From a virus: a stretch of DNA of 36,185 nucleotides. Below are positions 10,855-19,025 of this stretch, one piece after another; position 1 is the stretch's first letter; each line of letters opens with the position of its first letter. The position numbers and the translations under genes are program-made. Below the pieces are notes generated by a model that had not been told where the DNA came from, made no database searches, and saw only the letters and a program-made list of their open reading frames with translations. The stretch is taken from positions 1 through 36,185 of the IMG/VR virus record IMGVR_UViG_3300044638_004783. The stretch is one strand, 5' to 3'.

Positions 10855-11571
10855 TTAAGAAGCGTTCAGAATCAAGCTAATGAGCTTAGACTTCGTGGAA
10901 GCCTCTTTAATGCTCTTTGGCTCAATTTCTAATTCAATAGCAACATTATGTAAAGCCGGAATCGTCATCTTAAACAGATCTGATTCATCAATGATTTTAG
11001 TGTCATTGCTGACACTTTGATCAAAAGGGACAACATCATCCTCTACAACTGCTTCAGTGTTCTCAGTAATTGTGATGCCACCAAACTTGGCTTCCCAAAC
11101 AGAACTAAGAATTTTATCCACGTCAAGCAAAGTATAGTCAGCGACATCAACTTCGTACTTCTCGCCCTGCTCAACATCATATTCGGTGTCTAACCCAGCT
11201 CCCGAACGGATAATAACATAGTCACGGTTCAACAACGTGTCGTCATTACGCTGAGCACGCGTTACCAAACGGTTGTACAGGCTGACTGGGATCTTGTAAG
11301 CCTTAACAACTCCGGTGGAACGCTCAATAGCATTTACGCCGAACTTACGTGAAGCTGAACGTACTTTTTCGTCATTGCTTTGGCAACAAGGGCAAGTGCT
11401 TTTATCACGGGTGCAAGGAACAGAACCTCCATCGTACCAGTGCTCCCAGTACTCTCGGAAGTCTCCAGTCTCTTGAAGAAAACGGATCTTAGTGTCTCCA
11501 GTCTTGAACGTAGCAAGCCAATCGCTCTTTGCTGACGTTTTTTCAGAAGCTGCAGTAGTGAATCTAGCCAT
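10855..11571 (-). CDS. Single-stranded DNA-binding protein (gp32-like, zinc)
   Basis: A 238-residue protein. The N-terminal half has FLQETGDFREYWEHWYDGG followed by VPCTRDKSTCPCC: a His and three or four Cys that look like a structural zinc site, as in T4 gp32-type proteins. YKIPVSLYNRLVTRAQ and RDYVIIRSGAGLDTEY complete the core seen in actinophage ssDNA-binding proteins. The C-terminal third is acidic, as usual for partner binding. An AAGGA site lies 8 bases before the ATG. It directly precedes the tRNA-like element and the polymerase, as expected of a replisome gene. Confidence 0.75.
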   Translation of the reverse strand: MARFTTAASEKTSAKSDWLATFKTGDTKIRFLQETGDFREYWEHWYDGGSVPCTRDKSTCPCCQSNDEKVRSASRKFGVNAIERSTGVVKAYKIPVSLYNRLVTRAQRNDDTLLNRDYVIIRSGAGLDTEYDVEQGEKYEVDVADYTLLDVDKILSSVWEAKFGGITITENTEAVVEDDVVPFDQSVSNDTKIIDESDLFKMTIPALHNVAIELEIEPKSIKEASTKSKLISLILNAS

Positions 11572-15277: not shown

Positions 15278-15406
15278 ATGATAACTATTAGTGAAGATAT
15301 AGACATATGTGAAGAGTGTAATCAAGTAATACTAGTAGGGGAAATAATAATATGCACCCTATTAGGTAATAAGTTGTGTTCTGAACACATATATAAAGTT
15401 AGCTAA
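15278..15406 (+). CDS. Small Cys/His protein, probably leaderless
   Basis: A 42-residue protein with CEEC near the N-terminus and LCSEH near the C-terminus, a possible small zinc ribbon like several others in this phage. No Shine-Dalgarno is present (the ATG follows TATATATAT), but a promoter-like pair upstream would place the transcript start at the ATG. Its stop is 5 bases before the next strong promoter. Short length makes the call uncertain; Cys placement and context favour it. Confidence 0.5.
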   Translation: MITISEDIDICEECNQVILVGEIIICTLLGNKLCSEHIYKVS

Positions 15407-15410
15407 AAAC

Positions 15411-15439
15411 TTGACATTCTAATCAATATGCGGTATAAT
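15411..15439 (+). promoter_or_regulatory. Strong sigma-70-type promoter, head of the early region
   Basis: TTGACA at 15411-15416 and TATAAT at 15434-15439 are both perfect consensus with a 17-base spacer. Transcription would start near 15446 and give a leader of about 230 bases before the first larger early gene. A terminator lies about 60-90 bases into that leader. Confidence 0.85.
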
Positions 15440-15491
15440 ATAAGCAATAGGGAAAGTTATGTCGAAAATACATAGCAATCTACTATAAAAC

Positions 15492-15539
15492 ACGCAAAAT
15501 ACAAGCGCTTACGGTTTAATTCGTAGGCGCTTTTTGCGT
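15492..15539 (+). terminator. Leader terminator / attenuator after the early promoter
   Basis: The core stem 15504-15513 pairs with 15522-15531 (AGCGCTTACG with CGTAGGCGCT, one GU) around an 8-base loop, followed by TTTTT. The flanking ACGCAAAA (15492-15499) can also pair with TTTTGCGT. It lies within 100 bases of a perfect promoter and upstream of the genes it should serve, as an attenuator or the end of a short RNA. Confidence 0.75.
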
Positions 15540-15543
15540 TAGG

Positions 15544-15622
15544 TTTCCTTACTCACCCCCCGAGGTAAGGAAAAAACGCTAAATAATCTGCGATTCCCCC
15601 CCGTGTCAAAGGTTATTTAGCG
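15544..15622 (+). other. Two further leader hairpins with C-tracts
   Basis: TTTCCTTAC (15544-15552) pairs with GTAAGGAAA (15565-15573) around a C-rich loop. CGCTAAATAA (15577-15586) pairs perfectly with TTATTTAGCG (15613-15622) around a 26-base loop that carries a run of seven Cs. The second stem ends exactly where the pseudoknot at 15623 begins, so the three could stack. Function unknown. Confidence 0.55.
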
Positions 15623-15650
15623 CCTCCTGAGCATGAGGTTAAAAGGCTCA
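15623..15650 (+). promoter_or_regulatory. H-type pseudoknot, copy 1
   Basis: Stem 1 pairs CCTC (15623-15626) with GAGG (15635-15638). The loop of stem 1 holds TGAGC (15628-15632), which pairs with GCTCA (15646-15650). The intervening third loop is TTAAAAG (7 bases). It lies 28 bases upstream of the ATG at 15679 and 17 bases before its AAGGAG ribosome site. The same architecture recurs at 15839 and 18707. Confidence 0.6.
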
Positions 15651-15678
15651 CTTCCACAATAACCGTCAAGGAGAACAA

Positions 15679-15822
15679 ATGGAGATCTACATCCAGACGT
15701 GCGGGTGGTGCGAAAAATACCTACCAATTTACGATAACGACATGTGCGTAGATTGCTACGAAGAAGGCGTTGAAGAAGATGACGCTGATCCTGTTGCTAC
15801 TGACGACGAAGGCTATTCCTAA
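15679..15822 (+). CDS. Small zinc-ribbon-like acidic protein
   Basis: A 47-residue protein with two Cys pairs (TCGWC and MCVDC, 11 residues apart), probably one zinc site, followed by a very acidic tail (YEEGVEEDDADP). AAGGAG lies 6 bases before the ATG. It is the first gene after the strong early promoter and the structured leader, so it should be among the first phage proteins made. A regulator of host functions is possible, but that is inference. Confidence 0.7.
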   Translation: MEIYIQTCGWCEKYLPIYDNDMCVDCYEEGVEEDDADPVATDDEGYS

Positions 15823-15838
15823 GTTGTAGTAAATTTCA

Positions 15839-15866
15839 CCTCCTGAGTACGAGGCTAAAAAGCTCA
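15839..15866 (+). promoter_or_regulatory. H-type pseudoknot, copy 2
   Basis: CCTC (15839-15842) pairs with GAGG (15851-15854). TGAGT (15844-15848) pairs with GCTCA (15862-15866), the last pair being a T-G wobble where copy 1 has C-G. The third loop CTAAAAA is again 7 bases. It lies in the 85-base gap before the gene at 15908. Confidence 0.6.
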
Positions 15867-15907
15867 CACAAGGTAAATTCAACCAACCAAAAGAAAGAGG
15901 AAATATT

Positions 15908-16357
15908 ATGATCAGCAAGAATGCACTCAAGTCAGGTGGAGTGACTGTTCTTTCAAGTCTTGTCACGTACATCTTGGTTCGTGGCGCAATTGAGATTTGC
16001 GAGCTTTCGTTCACGCTAGGCAAGACTGTTTACAAAAACCGCAAGAAGACAAGTTTTCCAAGAAAAGAAGAAAAAGTTTTCGATAATCTTGAAAAACTGT
16101 CAGCAGAAGAACAATCGGAATTGCTCTCCCAATTCAACGCTGGCACTACTCCAGAAGAAATAAAGACTTTTGAAAAGTTTTCTGAAAAACTTTTAGAAGC
16201 GTATGGTTATGACGCAAAAACCGTTAATCCTGATGAAACAAATCAGGTAAGCAAGCTAGACCAAAACTTCGCTAAAAGTTTCCTGGTCAAAATCAATTCT
16301 AAGGCTACTGGCCTTGGTGCTAGTGCCGCTAGCATTGCAAAGAAGATTCACTTCTAA
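15908..16357 (+). CDS. Hypothetical early protein with N-terminal hydrophobic segment
   Basis: A 149-residue protein. Residues about 11-28 (GVTVLSSLVTYILVRGAI) could be a membrane span. The rest is Lys/Glu-rich and helical (EKVFDNLEKLSAEEQSELLS and on), with a KATGLGASAASIAKKIHF tail. It has AGAGG before the ATG and a strong intrinsic terminator right after the stop. Its own pseudoknot lies upstream. Position and leader suggest high early expression. The function is unknown. Confidence 0.7.
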   Translation: MISKNALKSGGVTVLSSLVTYILVRGAIEICELSFTLGKTVYKNRKKTSFPRKEEKVFDNLEKLSAEEQSELLSQFNAGTTPEEIKTFEKFSEKLLEAYGYDAKTVNPDETNQVSKLDQNFAKSFLVKINSKATGLGASAASIAKKIHF

Positions 16358-16360
16358 CAC

Positions 16361-16407
16361 AAATAGTAGGGGTTGCAGGTAATACTGCAGCCCCTACTAT
16401 TTTTTTG
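16361..16407 (+). terminator. Strong intrinsic terminator
   Basis: Bases 16361-16377 pair with 16385-16401 (17 bp, one GU) around a 7-base loop, followed by an unbroken T-run to 16407. It starts 3 bases after the stop at 16357. No promoter is visible before the next gene at 16433, so later genes need readthrough or antitermination. Confidence 0.9.
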
Positions 16408-16432
16408 CCTAAAACAAGCGAAGGAGGAAAAA

Positions 16433-16606
16433 ATGCTTTGGATGGACCCAGTTACCAAAACATGGGGTGAAGGAGATCATCTTTACACCATTGATCCAAT
16501 TCACTACGTTCATGCTATACAAGCTGAAATTGAAGAAGCCATAGAAGAGGGCGATGAAGAAAAGCTACTTTCTTTGATGATGCGATACGGAAGGAAAGTA
16601 AAATGA
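16433..16606 (+). CDS. Hypothetical small protein
   Basis: A 57-residue protein starting MLWMDPVTKTWGEGDHLY, with an acidic helix (AIQAEIEEAIEEGDEEKLLS). AAGGAGG lies 7 bases before the ATG and sets the start. The stop overlaps the next ATG (ATGA), so the two are coupled. Unrecognised. Confidence 0.7.
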   Translation: MLWMDPVTKTWGEGDHLYTIDPIHYVHAIQAEIEEAIEEGDEEKLLSLMMRYGRKVK

Positions 16607-16740
16607 CCCACGTAGCAAATCATATGAGTGGTTGGTGCATGACTAACAACCACACAAACTGCGCTGGCATTTTTGAGTCCAGTATGGAAAGCAAAACACC
16701 CGCCCAATGGAAATGTCCATGTTCTTGTCATAAGGAGTAA
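16603..16740 (+). CDS. Small Cys/His protein
   Basis: A 45-residue protein. GWCMTNNHTNC near the start and WKCPCSCHKE at the end give C-x7-C and C-x-C-x-CH groups, a likely zinc site. This layout is familiar from tiny actinophage proteins of unknown role. The start overlaps the previous stop (ATGA). The stop is 2 bases before the next ATG, and the ribosome site of that gene lies inside its last codons. Confidence 0.7.
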   Translation: MTHVANHMSGWCMTNNHTNCAGIFESSMESKTPAQWKCPCSCHKE

Positions 16741-16742
16741 AA

Positions 16743-17177
16743 ATGCCTGTACCTACATCGGATAAAGTAGATCGCTTTTTTAGTTGGGAAGTACACGAAT
16801 CAGAAGATAAACTAGAACAAATGAAATCAATTGCTTCGTTACACGATTTGTTATGTAGAGATGTATTATTAGCTAAACTAGTTATGCTAGAAGATGATGA
16901 TCCAAATTACAAAACGGCGATAAGATATTTACACGGGTTATTAGAAGTATGCCCAGACGATTTATCGTGTGGTGTATACGTTGTTTTAAGTATTGATGCG
17001 TATACTAAAGATCAAGAAGACTACGCTCAAAGTTTACTTAATCTGTGCATGGAAAGTAATCCAAGACACAAACTTGGTTTATTAGCTAAAAAAATGTATA
17101 GCAAGTACACTCCAAGCGCAGTTAAACAAGTTATTTCAACAGCAATGGAATTAATAGAAATTGAAGAAGATAAGTAA
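16743..17177 (+). CDS. Hypothetical helical protein (TPR-like?)
   Basis: A 144-residue protein predicted almost all helical: SIASLHDLLCRDVLLAKLVM, YKTAIRYLHGLLEVCPDDLS, DAYTKDQEDYAQSLLNLC and NPRHKLGLLAKKMYSKYTP. Paired helices of about 35 residues with these spacings recall tetratricopeptide repeats. This is shape recognition, not a motif match. AAGGAG precedes the ATG. It is the last gene before an internal promoter. Confidence 0.65.
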   Translation: MPVPTSDKVDRFFSWEVHESEDKLEQMKSIASLHDLLCRDVLLAKLVMLEDDDPNYKTAIRYLHGLLEVCPDDLSCGVYVVLSIDAYTKDQEDYAQSLLNLCMESNPRHKLGLLAKKMYSKYTPSAVKQVISTAMELIEIEEDK

Positions 17178-17199
17178 ATTAGGTAATTTGTTTTATATA

Positions 17200-17208
17200 T
17201 GGTATAAT
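17200..17208 (+). promoter_or_regulatory. Extended -10 promoter
   Basis: TGGTATAAT at 17200-17208 is a consensus extended -10 (TGnTATAAT). No convincing -35 lies upstream, as expected for extended -10 promoters. Transcription would start near 17215. The transcript begins with GGGGAAAACTATA, similar to the GGGAAAGTTATG found after the 15411 promoter. Confidence 0.7.
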
Positions 17209-17237
17209 TAATGTGTTGGGGAAAACTATACCCAATT

Positions 17238-17263
17238 ACCGTCTCAAATTGAGGCGGTTTTTT
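17238..17263 (+). terminator. Leader terminator / attenuator before the 17285 gene
   Basis: ACCGTCTC (17238-17245) pairs with GAGGCGGT (17251-17258) around AAATT, followed by TTTTTT. It lies about 25 bases after the expected start of transcription and just upstream of the gene at 17285. A short TTGGG/CCCAA hairpin precedes it. Confidence 0.8.
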
Positions 17264-17284
17264 ATTGTTTAAAGAGAGGAAGAT

Positions 17285-17647
17285 ATGAGCACTTTAGCCT
17301 ACAATATAATTTGGATATTTATCGTAGTTGTCTCGTCTGCTATCGCATTTAAAGCAGGTTTTAACAAGTACAAAAGAGAATCCATTATTGAGCGTTTTAC
17401 AGAAACGTTGCGTTTAATCCAAAATGAACGCGCGATACAAGAAACTCAAATTACATTTACAAAACTATGGTGCGAGAAAATTAACTTCATAAATTCGGAT
17501 GAAGAATTTCCTCAATATCTACAATCTATTTCTAGTACTATGGTAAAAGAAATGATTAGTTCTGTAAATATCATGCAAGAAATGGTAGATAGTTCTAAGC
17601 GTTTTGAATCTGTAATCAAAGAAGAACTTAAAACATTAACCAAATAG
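17285..17647 (+). CDS. Small membrane-anchored helical protein
   Basis: A 120-residue protein. Residues about 6-24 (NIIWIFIVVVSSAIAFKAG) are one membrane span with a short outside N-terminus. The remainder is helical and charged (YKRESIIERFTETLRLIQNE and on) and could form a coiled coil in the cytoplasm. AGAGGA precedes the ATG. An attenuator lies directly upstream. Unknown function; a membrane role in superinfection exclusion or host modification is possible but unproven. Confidence 0.7.
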   Translation: MSTLAYNIIWIFIVVVSSAIAFKAGFNKYKRESIIERFTETLRLIQNERAIQETQITFTKLWCEKINFINSDEEFPQYLQSISSTMVKEMISSVNIMQEMVDSSKRFESVIKEELKTLTK

Positions 17648-17657
17648 GAGAACAGCT

Positions 17658-17945
17658 GTGAGTGAACTTCAGTACAATTTCATCACTACAATGAGCGAAG
17701 AAGGGCTTTGTGCTAACGAAGATCCTGGTTTGTTTGTTAGTGATATTGAAGAAGAGAAGTCATACCGTTTAGCTAAAGAAATATGCAAAAATTGCCCGAT
17801 TAAAGTTCCGTGCTTTGATTATGCAATGGAAGTTTCCCCATATGGAGTATGGGGAGGTACAACTGAATATGAACGTACCCGCATGAAGGGTAAAAAGCAT
17901 TTCATGGGTCTGAGTGTTTATTCAGACAGAGCTTTATCAATCTAA
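17658..17945 (+). CDS. WhiB-family Fe-S transcription regulator
   Basis: A 95-residue protein of normal WhiB size. It has a first Cys in EGLCANEDPGLF, CKNCPIKVPC (C-x2-C-x5-C) and SPYGVWGGTTEYER. All four cluster ligands and the GVWGG turn are present. The start is GTG at 17658 with AGGAG upstream. A second WhiB-like protein (4574-5095) lies on the other strand; this one belongs to the early region and may alter host sigma-factor activity, as known for mycobacteriophage TM4 WhiB. Confidence 0.9.
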   Translation: MSELQYNFITTMSEEGLCANEDPGLFVSDIEEEKSYRLAKEICKNCPIKVPCFDYAMEVSPYGVWGGTTEYERTRMKGKKHFMGLSVYSDRALSI

Positions 17946-17965
17946 TTAAACTATAAGGAGTAATA

Positions 17966-18376
17966 ATGAGTACAGAAAATGGTTATGAGTTTGTTGAAGA
18001 TATTCCAGTTTCTAACGAAGAAAATAGATATGTCGCTAAATATCTAGACCTTTCAGAAGTGCTACGCAATAATCCAGGTCAGATTATTAAGCTGACTGAA
18101 CGGAAGAGCGCTTCATTTATTTCTTCAATTAACCAAGGAGTTTTAAAAGCCTTTAAGCCAAAGGGTGAGTTTAAAGCCGTTGGTAGAATGCAAGGCAAAG
18201 ATGGCTTACAAGATTGCTACATTCAATTTGTAGGAACACCATCTCACACGTCTGAGGACACTAACTACCTTAAAGTAGTATCCGAGGCTATTGCTGCTAC
18301 TAATTTAGTAGACCCAGAATACGCAGAAGACGAATCTTGGGAATACGAGTACCAGTCTCCAGAAATTGTAAAATAA
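17966..18376 (+). CDS. Hypothetical protein
   Basis: A 136-residue protein, unrecognised. It has an acidic start, a middle that looks alpha/beta (SEVLRNNPGQIIKLTERKSA, KPKGEFKAVGRMQGKDGLQD and CYIQFVGTP) and an acidic tail. ATAAGGAG precedes the ATG. The stop overlaps the next start (TAATG). Confidence 0.65.
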   Translation: MSTENGYEFVEDIPVSNEENRYVAKYLDLSEVLRNNPGQIIKLTERKSASFISSINQGVLKAFKPKGEFKAVGRMQGKDGLQDCYIQFVGTPSHTSEDTNYLKVVSEAIAATNLVDPEYAEDESWEYEYQSPEIVK

Positions 18377-18660
18377 TGCTAGAGCCTGATGAATTTGACG
18401 AAGCAACAAAGCTAATCATGGAAGCTTTTGATGCTAAATTTATTGGCTATTTAGTGTGTAGATTTTGTAACTCTAAGCTTAGTCAAGAAAGATCTAATAT
18501 CTATGACCACTGTTCAAGTAGTGATTGCGTCTTAACTTGGCGACGAGAGCGTCTTGAACAGTTTCGGCTAGATTTAGTTCCTAAGCAAGGATTTGCAATT
18601 TCGTTCAAGAGTGACGAGCACGTTCGTTCTATTGGTCGCTCATCTGGAAGATCAATTTAA
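18376..18660 (+). CDS. Zinc-ribbon-like protein
   Basis: A 94-residue protein. Residues about 23-47 hold CRFCNSKL, then DHCSSSDC: C-x2-C followed by C-x4-C, a probable zinc site. A basic stretch comes next (WRRERLEQFRLDLVPKQ). The ATG overlaps the previous stop in TAATG, which decides this start over longer forms. A DNA- or RNA-binding role is plausible. Confidence 0.7.
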   Translation: MLEPDEFDEATKLIMEAFDAKFIGYLVCRFCNSKLSQERSNIYDHCSSSDCVLTWRRERLEQFRLDLVPKQGFAISFKSDEHVRSIGRSSGRSI

Positions 18661-18706
18661 GCAGACAAAACAAAACAGAGACTCACTTCCCTGATTCTTT
18701 GTTTAC

Positions 18707-18734
18707 ACACCTGAGCAAGTGTTTAAACTGCTCA
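18707..18734 (+). promoter_or_regulatory. H-type pseudoknot, copy 3
   Basis: ACAC (18707-18710) pairs with GTGT (18719-18722): all four stem-1 pairs differ or are rearranged relative to copies 1 and 2 (CCTC/GAGG), yet pairing is kept. TGAGC (18712-18716) pairs with GCTCA (18730-18734). The third loop TTAAACT is 7 bases. The ribosome site AAGGAG of the gene at 18756 follows 13 bases later. Confidence 0.6.
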
Positions 18735-18755
18735 ACAAAACTAATAAGGAGAGCA

Positions 18756-19025
18756 ATGAAAATTTTAAAGAAACAGCAATGTTATGCGGTGGTTATAAAC
18801 GACAGCGATGTGTACGAGGAGCTTTGTGGGCAAGAAGAAATAGATCAAGTTCCAATTTTATGCGGTACTCGTGAGCTCGCTGAGTATTTTGCTAAAGAAG
18901 CCAATATTGAATGGAATCAAGACAACGATGGAACTTGTTACTGTGGTGATTGTGGTACAAGTTCTCCTATGTGTTATGACCGAGTAGTATTCAGTGTTCG
19001 AGAAGTTCAGATATATTGGAATTAA
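18756..19025 (+). CDS. Hypothetical Cys-rich protein
   Basis: An 89-residue protein. It starts MKILKKQQCYAVVINDSDVY and later has CYCGDCGTSSPMC, a cluster that could bind metal. TRELAEYFAKEAN is a probable helix. AAGGAG is well spaced before this ATG. It is preceded by the third pseudoknot and followed by a tRNA-Leu gene. Confidence 0.65.
   Translation: MKILKKQQCYAVVINDSDVYEELCGQEEIDQVPILCGTRELAEYFAKEANIEWNQDNDGTCYCGDCGTSSPMCYDRVVFSVREVQIYWN

Follow-up and report, generated by a model that had tools for sequence, protein, structure and literature searches.

Between cistrons, RNA structures can shield the upstream message once the transcript has been processed; examples are the 3' hairpins that RNase III processes in phage T7 and the REP elements of E. 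coli. The pseudoknots of BWYV-type frameshifting and of MLV readthrough, about 28 nt long, have a short C-containing loop 1 and an A-rich loop 3 and sit 5-8 nt behind the decoding site. In viruses of eukaryotes, exoribonuclease-resistant RNAs (xrRNAs) are compact pseudoknots shown to withstand host nucleases, with a ring fold that stops 5'-3' enzymes. Class I preQ1 riboswitches are small mRNA pseudoknots of the H-type whose A-rich third loop lies over stem 1 (PMC11625349); they have a loop 1 of several nucleotides helping to form the ligand pocket and a short stem 2, and are associated with queuosine genes and an expression platform made of a Shine-Dalgarno or a terminator. In phages T4 and T2, an H-type pseudoknot in the gene 32 leader serves as an operator; it occurs in front of no gene but that of the SSB and has been described as perhaps the only case of viral autoregulation (PMC3014915). 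Here we compare with these systems a 28-nt pseudoknot, the knot, of a 36,185-base virus record, the whole of which is called the window.

Three copies of one pseudoknot

An earlier note on this DNA had claimed pseudoknots at 15623, 15839 and 18707, and all three were found at these places on the + strand (Table 1). Each has a 4-bp stem 1, a loop 1 of one C, a 5-bp stem 2, and loops 2 and 3 of 2 and 7 nt; the record holds exact matches at these three places only. The bare geometry (4/1/5/2/4/7/5) was rejected as evidence, since chance yields equal numbers (17 in the window versus 6-20 in shuffles). In 20 dinucleotide shuffles of the window, TGAG...GCTCA, the sequence common to the copies, occurred 0 times. 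Stem 1 does keep its pairing between copies, as had been claimed, but it was an overstatement that it changes "completely". It is identical in copies 1 and 2, and between CCTC/GAGG and ACAC/GTGT the first and third pairs alone differ; the second and fourth are C-G throughout. The reported change of the fifth stem-2 pair from C-G to U-G was correct, whereas the ribosome sites lie about 17, 30 and 10 nt from the respective copies and not at the 13-35 nt given.

Because a terminator-like hairpin separates it from a perfect promoter, copy 1 stands in a leader and has no gene upstream of it. No DNA relatives of the window were found in the phage collection.

Table 1. Positions of the knots and of neighbouring features in the window.
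Feature	Position	Strand	Details
Sigma-70-type promoter	15411-15439	+	perfect TTGACA-17-TATAAT; upstream of copy 1
Terminator-like hairpin	15503-15532	+	between promoter and copy 1
Hairpin	15577-15622	+	CGCTAAATAATCT...GGTTATTTAGCG; folding z -2.4; ends exactly at first base of copy 1
Pseudoknot copy 1	15623-15650	+	stem 1 15623-15626/15635-15638 CCTC/GAGG; loop 1 C15627; stem 2 15628-15632/15646-15650 TGAGC/GCTCA; loop 2 AT; loop 3 TTAAAAG 15639-15645
Small gene, 47 aa	15679-15822	+	no Pfam or PHROG match; start 28 nt after copy 1; stop 16 nt before copy 2
Pseudoknot copy 2	15839-15866	+	stem 1 15839-15842/15851-15854 CCTC/GAGG; loop 1 C; stem 2 15844-15848/15862-15866 TGAGT/GCTCA; loop 2 AC; loop 3 CTAAAAA
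Gene, 149 aa	15908-16357	+	no match; start 41 nt after copy 2
Gene before copy 3	18376-18660		stop 46 nt before copy 3
Predicted hairpin	18673-18704	+	weak, z -1.6; ends 2 nt before copy 3
Pseudoknot copy 3	18707-18734	+	stem 1 18707-18710/18719-18722 ACAC/GTGT; loop 1 C; stem 2 18712-18716/18730-18734 TGAGC/GCTCA; loop 2 AA; loop 3 TTAAACT
Gene, 89 aa	18756-19025	+	no match; start 21 nt after copy 3

Covariation across a family

Homologues were found without a covariance model, which cannot hold both helices, and several variants gave at least 120 loci each. Stem 1 was left out of the search pattern and was nevertheless paired at 4/4 positions in 101 of 127 viral matches, compared with 0 of 49 in the control. 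The stem-2 double mutant TGGAC/GTCCA was present at no fewer than 120 loci and the two half mutants at 0 and 0. Among 60 selected diverse sequences, 98.9% of cells were paired and 148 double changes were counted, slid controls reaching at most 34%. The aligned copies all have a 1-nt loop 1 and a 5-bp stem 2, and the family consensus is NNNC-C-URRRY-AN-GNNN-YUAAA(CU/AG)-RYYYA, about 28 nt, with C, A, UAAA and the loop-3 dinucleotide CU/AG as invariant loop bases.

The earlier note had named a lack of covarying homologues in related phages as grounds for refutation; the search returned hundreds, and this covariation is strong support for a compact pseudoknot of the H-type whose conservation rests on compensatory change. 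The three knots are members of a large structured-RNA family, which has in common with the xrRNAs that it is a compact viral pseudoknot conserved by covariation. The family is absent from Rfam 15, which gave no match at the knot in the window or the scanned loci, and the searchable open-access literature yielded no paper on the motif, on its letters or on the role proposed for it. That a structured RNA so common in phages is missing from Rfam would leave phage annotation with a large gap, the probable reason being that covariance-model searches miss a pseudoknot of 28 nt.

Distribution and comparison with regulatory pseudoknots

The knot is present in phages of Staphylococcus, Lactobacillus, Arthrobacter, Mycobacterium, Bacillus, Ruegeria and Synechococcus, in a crAss-like phage and in Saccharibacteria genomes. 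On the evidence of these matches, it is an element of phages and mobile elements from very different bacteria of many phyla; E. coli chromosomes gave no real match to the one variant searched. Typically it is intergenic, between cistrons, and of the copies between co-directional long ORFs, 162 are on the coding strand and 5 on the other. Its placement is gene-independent, with up to six knots per contig and unrelated genes downstream (scaffold, kinases, endolysin, DnaB helicase, ArdA).

These unrelated genes argue against a metabolite-sensing riboswitch of the preQ1-like size class, a reading suggested by the size, the H-type fold and the A-rich third loop, which resemble class I preQ1 aptamers. 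The earlier note, which had guessed at a ligand-sensing element, had itself seen no match to the preQ1-I consensus; indeed, the Rfam preQ1 model found nothing in the window at gathering level, nor at E up to 10 in 15400-18800. With its 1-nt loop 1 and 5-bp stem 2, the knot does not belong to preQ1 class I. Moreover, it lacks queuosine genes and a shared expression platform, the Shine-Dalgarno sequence lying 10-30 nt outside the fold, and the same element recurs within a contig and before tRNAs, a tRNA or self-cleaving ribozyme standing directly behind some copies. We rejected a metabolite riboswitch on this gene context and consider it extremely improbable.

Like the gene 32 operator, the knot is an H-type pseudoknot found in phage leaders, but it lies before unrelated genes and behind stops in many phages. 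In Arthrobacter phage Amigo, the order is SSB gene, knot, tRNA-Gly, so that the knot comes after and not before SSB, and the SSB-like gene of the window (10855-11571) is on the other strand with no knot nearby. This placement does not fit an autoregulatory operator of this type. A protein operator in the broader sense, likewise guessed at in the earlier note, found no support but may yet apply; it would have to rely on a factor that phages of many bacterial phyla share.

The same objection, a partner shared by hosts of many phyla, applies if the knot binds a conserved protein or machine acting on the transcript, be it RNA polymerase (put/nut-like antitermination), ribosomal protein S1 or a phage RNA-binding protein. 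The strong loop conservation could be read as the mark of a bound partner, and the multi-copy, gene-independent placement and the position of the window copies upstream of terminator-like sites in an early operon speak for it; yet a stable H-type knot would be expected to have just these invariant bases for its triples, and adjacency to RNase P and hammerhead cleavage sites has no natural role in antitermination. We hold such a binding site to be distinctly unlikely.

Spacing to stops and starts

A stop ends exactly 5 nt upstream of the knot in 88 of 330 copies and 6 nt upstream in 46 of 330, the background being about 19. With long upstream ORFs, it lies 0-3 nt before the knot in 0 of 202 cases and 4-8 nt before it in 32%, versus 2.7% in the null. 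BWYV and MLV pseudoknots resemble the knot in size, loops and spacing; the knot, in contrast, has no shared reading frame or slippery site. A frameshift or readthrough stimulator was rejected, since distances run from 4 to >100 nt in no common frame; with a spacing to the stop that varies, no recoding is expected.

Sharp spacing at 5-6 nt with none at 0-3 nt would also arise if the knot stood at the mRNA entry of a ribosome terminating on the upstream stop, and the known spacing of frameshift and readthrough pseudoknots is close to this value. We regard such a ribosome insulator as unlikely, and equally its detailed form, in which post-termination sliding or readthrough would be blocked, cistrons uncoupled and ribosomes kept off the tRNA, ribozyme or next start. 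Structured RNAs do adjoin the knot, but copy 1 of the window, without an upstream gene, offers no obvious ribosome to stop, some copies lie 20-60 nt behind a stop with a hairpin in between, and others have only a terminator behind them.

Many copies, including those of the window, are followed by a start codon, commonly 17-30 nt later, with ATG peaks at 20, 22 and 28 nt; in staphylococcal and lactobacillar phages, scaffold and major capsid genes come after the knot. Directly 5' of the knot, hairpins are common and enriched family-wide and could be RNase III sites. All this would suit a 5' leader structure that stabilises a cleaved downstream message or tunes its translation. We think this very unlikely, as RNase P or hammerhead cuts 3' of the knot would sever it from the downstream gene and some copies have only a tRNA or terminator behind. 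The 60 nt before the knot are more structured than random, while the 60 nt after it fold like random DNA, and structured RNA downstream was rejected as a rule.

Cleavage sites behind the knot and possible protection of 3' ends

In 10 copies a tRNA 5' end lies 2-13 nt downstream, versus 0.5 expected within 30 nt; nothing comparable was seen for tRNA genes just upstream. Knot-to-tRNA spacings of 8-24 occurred at 120 loci or more, compared with 3 at spacings of 40-56, most tRNA cases being one tRNA-Asp lineage. Furthermore, nine knots are paired with a hammerhead ribozyme 3' of the knot, and in four of the pairs a reading of the hammerhead core places the cleavage 5, 5, 7 and 7 nt after it. After cleavage there by RNase P or the ribozyme, the upstream message would have the knot at its 3' end. 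In bacterial small genes and a Saccharibacteria copy, a terminator follows the knot. Terminators are found within 130 nt downstream in only 18 of 337 copies, which led us to reject a direct intrinsic attenuator.

These arrangements suggest that the knot may be an intercistronic barrier protecting mRNA 3' ends from exonucleases, a reading we favour tentatively, at somewhat short of even chances. It would be a cis-acting module of phage and mobile-element messages, tiny and mechanically stiff, typically sealing the upstream message 5-6 nt behind its stop. The transcript would be cut just behind it, by RNase P at a tRNA, by a hammerhead, and presumably by RNase E, Y or III elsewhere, or would end at a terminator. 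PNPase, RNase R or RNase II would then find too short a tail to begin on. We infer that the knot resists unwinding and hence exonucleases, through a proposed C+.G-C triple from loop 1 and A-minor contacts from the UAAA of loop 3. Short tail and resistant knot together would stabilise the preceding gene's message, prolonging its half-life independently of what comes after.

The order stop, knot, processing or termination site, as with REP or T7 hairpins, is found in a large part of the family; those structures are plain hairpins, whereas the knot is a sequence-conserved pseudoknot in phages of many phyla. The pseudoknot evopreQ1, which prevents loss of the 3' extension when placed on the 3' end of a pegRNA (PMC9456398), is a precedent that we count in favour of 3'-end protection. 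Against the barrier, the window copies follow the order only loosely and are less clear-cut, copy 1 having no upstream gene, copy 2 lying 16 nt and copy 3 46 nt after a stop. Family-wide, about every second copy has no stop within 15 nt, many stand close before a start, the tRNA cases come mostly from a single lineage, and one desulfobacterial group of small genes has its stop within the knot itself.

Possibly, though we put it below an even chance, the family is an undescribed class of exonuclease-resistant pseudoknots in DNA phages and mobile elements of many phyla, capping 3' ends at ribozyme, tRNA and other processing sites. It would be the phage counterpart of the eukaryotic-virus xrRNAs, differing in being 28 nt long and placed to stop 3'-5' decay. 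If the knot protects message ends, it would explain the different levels of individual genes on long phage transcripts, give the hammerhead ribozymes and tRNA genes of phage operons a clear function, that of cut sites, and provide RNA engineering with a very short natural 3' cap.

Identity with the DUF2800 RNA (RF02960) was rejected, as the knot lies outside its model and mostly occurs without it; in two contigs (L163 and L183), matches to this RNA begin at the nucleotide directly after the knot.

Covariation of the knot family

The window holds three copies of the knot, an H-type pseudoknot of about 28 nt, as the earlier note described them, and they are the sole exact matches in the 36,185-base record. 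That note had stem 1 changing completely between copies with pairing kept; stem 1 does change, but in two of its four pairs. Geometry alone is worthless as evidence, since 17 fits in the window compare with 6-20 after shuffling; the letters shared by the copies occurred in none of the shuffled windows.

Viral contigs were searched with a pattern in which the loops and stem 2 were fixed and stem 1 was left free. This gave at least 120 matches, a lower bound that, like the other counts given here as 'at least', hides the true number. All four stem-1 pairs, though absent from the pattern, were present in 101 of the 127 matches listed, while across the whole collection the reversed pattern matched 49 times, never with four stem-1 pairs (0/49). 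Counted without redundancy, the retrieved loci yielded 337 copies and their reversed sequences 4; the loci also contained other stem-2 sequences (TAAGC/GCTTA, TGGAC/GTCCA, TAGGC/GCCTG and more). At the level of sequence, the decisive covariation test was a scan of the whole viral collection, in which the compensated stem 2 TGGAC/GTCCA occurred in at least 120 loci and either half mutant (TGGAC/GCTCA or TGAGC/GTCCA) in none. Covarying homologues of the window knots, as expected for the structured element that the earlier note proposed, are thus found in viral contigs.

Among 60 diverse sequences, 98.9% of cells were paired, with double changes in 148, compared with at most 34% paired in slid-structure controls, the high figure being partly by construction because the 60 were drawn from copies already past the pairing filter. 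By mutual information the stem-1 pairs ranked highest, followed by a coupled loop-3 dinucleotide, CU/AG, and after it the stem-2 pairs. In Arthrobacter phage Amigo a longer stem 1 (5 bp) is accompanied by a longer loop 3 (8 nt), as a loop 3 spanning stem 1 would predict. We conclude that the knot family is a real, widespread structured RNA. Judged by Rfam 15 and open-licence full-text papers, it is new as far as our tools show; Rfam 15 has no entry at knot positions in the window and the scanned loci. The coupled dinucleotide forms the last two bases of loop 3 (alignment positions 22-23; 128 CT and 43 AG of 188). It lies outside any helix and may contact the junction; a binding partner that recognises the knot is possible.

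Position relative to genes and cleavage sites

Between co-directional long ORFs, the knot lay on the coding strand in 162 copies and on the opposite strand in 5. Of 330 copies, 88 had a stop codon ending exactly 5 nt upstream and 46 had one ending 6 nt upstream (background about 19). When the preceding ORF had 100 codons or more, by simple ORF calls in the retrieved contigs, the stop was 4-8 nt away in 65 of 202 copies (32%; null 2.7%) and 0-3 nt away in none. Where it was farther off, the intervening stretch was often a hairpin (32% with z < -2, versus 8.5% of random 60-mers), and one lies just 5' of window copy 1. A leader role across the family is possible; no common function of the downstream genes was found across phages carrying the knot, and scaffold proteins recur downstream in firmicute phages.

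In a sample unselected for tRNA, ten copies had a tRNA gene (Asp, Gly, Asn, Leu or Ser) starting 2-13 nt downstream, with 0.5 expected within 30 nt; no comparable enrichment was seen upstream. In the whole collection, a knot to D-arm spacing of 8-24 occurred in at least 120 loci and one of 40-56 in 3. Among the knot-tRNA loci listed, nearly all tRNA-Asp and of one lineage, 109 of 117 knots passed the strict test; eight did not, most of which fold with small differences in length. A hammerhead ribozyme lay downstream of nine copies on eight contigs; in four, with the core read by eye, 5, 5, 7 and 7 nt separated the knot from the cleaved phosphate behind it. Judging from these arrangements, a tRNA or hammerhead cut would sever the knot from the downstream RNA, and the upstream RNA would then have the knot at its 3' end. 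The paired units of L128 (Table) could release the RNA lying between them.

A possible 3'-end seal

A tail of a few nucleotides is generally considered shorter than processive 3' exonucleases require. The simplest reading is that the knot seals the 3' end of the upstream message: after cleavage, the tail behind it would be a few nucleotides, too short for such enzymes. The knot also bears the marks of a stiff H-type fold, namely a single C in loop 1, an A-rich loop 3 and avoidance of G (11 of 330 copies) in the position right behind stem 2, where it would base-pair with the C of loop 1. Lying 5 nt behind the stop, the knot would sit directly ahead of a terminating ribosome, and a role as ribosome insulator is possible. 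Synthetic pegRNAs are stabilised by pseudoknots and xrRNAs attached to their 3' end (PMC9456398), which makes the physics of a 3'-end seal plausible; we infer that phages may use one. A barrier at the 3' end of processed mRNA is the best supported of several readings, put forward tentatively at slightly under an even chance. The window copies fit this arrangement loosely.

Distribution and neighbouring features

Two promoter/terminator-like pairs in the early operon of the window suggest attenuation or antitermination, and its WhiB-type gene points to an actinobacterial host.

Coordinates of knots and neighbouring features in the window and in retrieved contigs carrying family members (L-numbers)
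Sequence	Position	Feature	Remark
Window	15623-15650 (+)	Knot copy 1	Leader between terminator-like hairpin and 47-aa gene
Window	15839-15866 (+)	Knot copy 2	16 nt downstream of a stop
Window	18707-18734 (+)	Knot copy 3	46 nt downstream of a stop
Window	15411-15439	Promoter-like site
Window	15503-15532	Terminator-like hairpin	Within ~70 nt of promoter-like site
Window	~17190-17258	Promoter-like site, then terminator-like hairpin	Within ~70 nt
Window	17658-17945	WhiB-type transcription factor gene	Early operon
L163	1691-1849 (-)	Rfam DUF2800 RNA	Begins at nucleotide right after knot
L183	1346-1502 (-)	Rfam DUF2800 RNA	Begins at nucleotide right after knot
L193, L195	near 2499-2527	Knot with reduced stem 2	Between head-morphogenesis and scaffold genes
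L128	380-760 (-)	Two knot-hammerhead units	~270 nt apart, same direction
L162	213-240	Cyanobacterial CRISPR spacer	Opens with knot sequence
L085	2835-3134 (-)	tmRNA gene	Viral contig
L292	706-1028	tmRNA gene	Viral contig
L031	301-464 (-)	manA RNA	Flanked by tRNA genes, viral contig

Named phages in which the knot region was read include StauST398-3, B166, phig1e, crAss-like cr7_1, Amigo, Labelle, DSS3phi2, Page and S-EIVl; Escherichia phage flopper has a weaker candidate. In StauST398-3 and B166 stem 2 is reduced and the annotation places a predicted promoter at this site; in the staphylococcal phages L193 and L195 stem 2 is down to about 3 pairs (CGACCTTAGCATGTCGTTAAACTGCTTT). The CRISPR spacer in L162 indicates that hosts sample knot-carrying phages.

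A stricter pattern found 69 loci in bacterial and archaeal genomes, and in 46 of these stem 1 pairs at all four positions. Several of the 69 adjoin phage genes, such as those for scaffold proteins, and some sit instead in a small-gene context (Desulfobacterota, a Patescibacterium). In a Saccharibacteria family, 13 of 151 genomes carry the knot, one of them five times; the reversed pattern was absent from these 151.

Hairpins like the DUF2800 RNA stand behind the knot in L127, L141, L143-L145, L155, L161, L170 and L171, and the published DUF2800 RNA model may lack its 5' knot. A conserved gene for a peptide of about 20 residues has its UGA stop inside the knot in L132, L142, L191, L192, L154, L134, L124 and L179, from Desulfobacterota and a Patescibacterium; five encode MRWMFPHATHCSTCGS...S and others MKRY...AHC. 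Most of these loci have a terminator 20-50 nt behind the knot.
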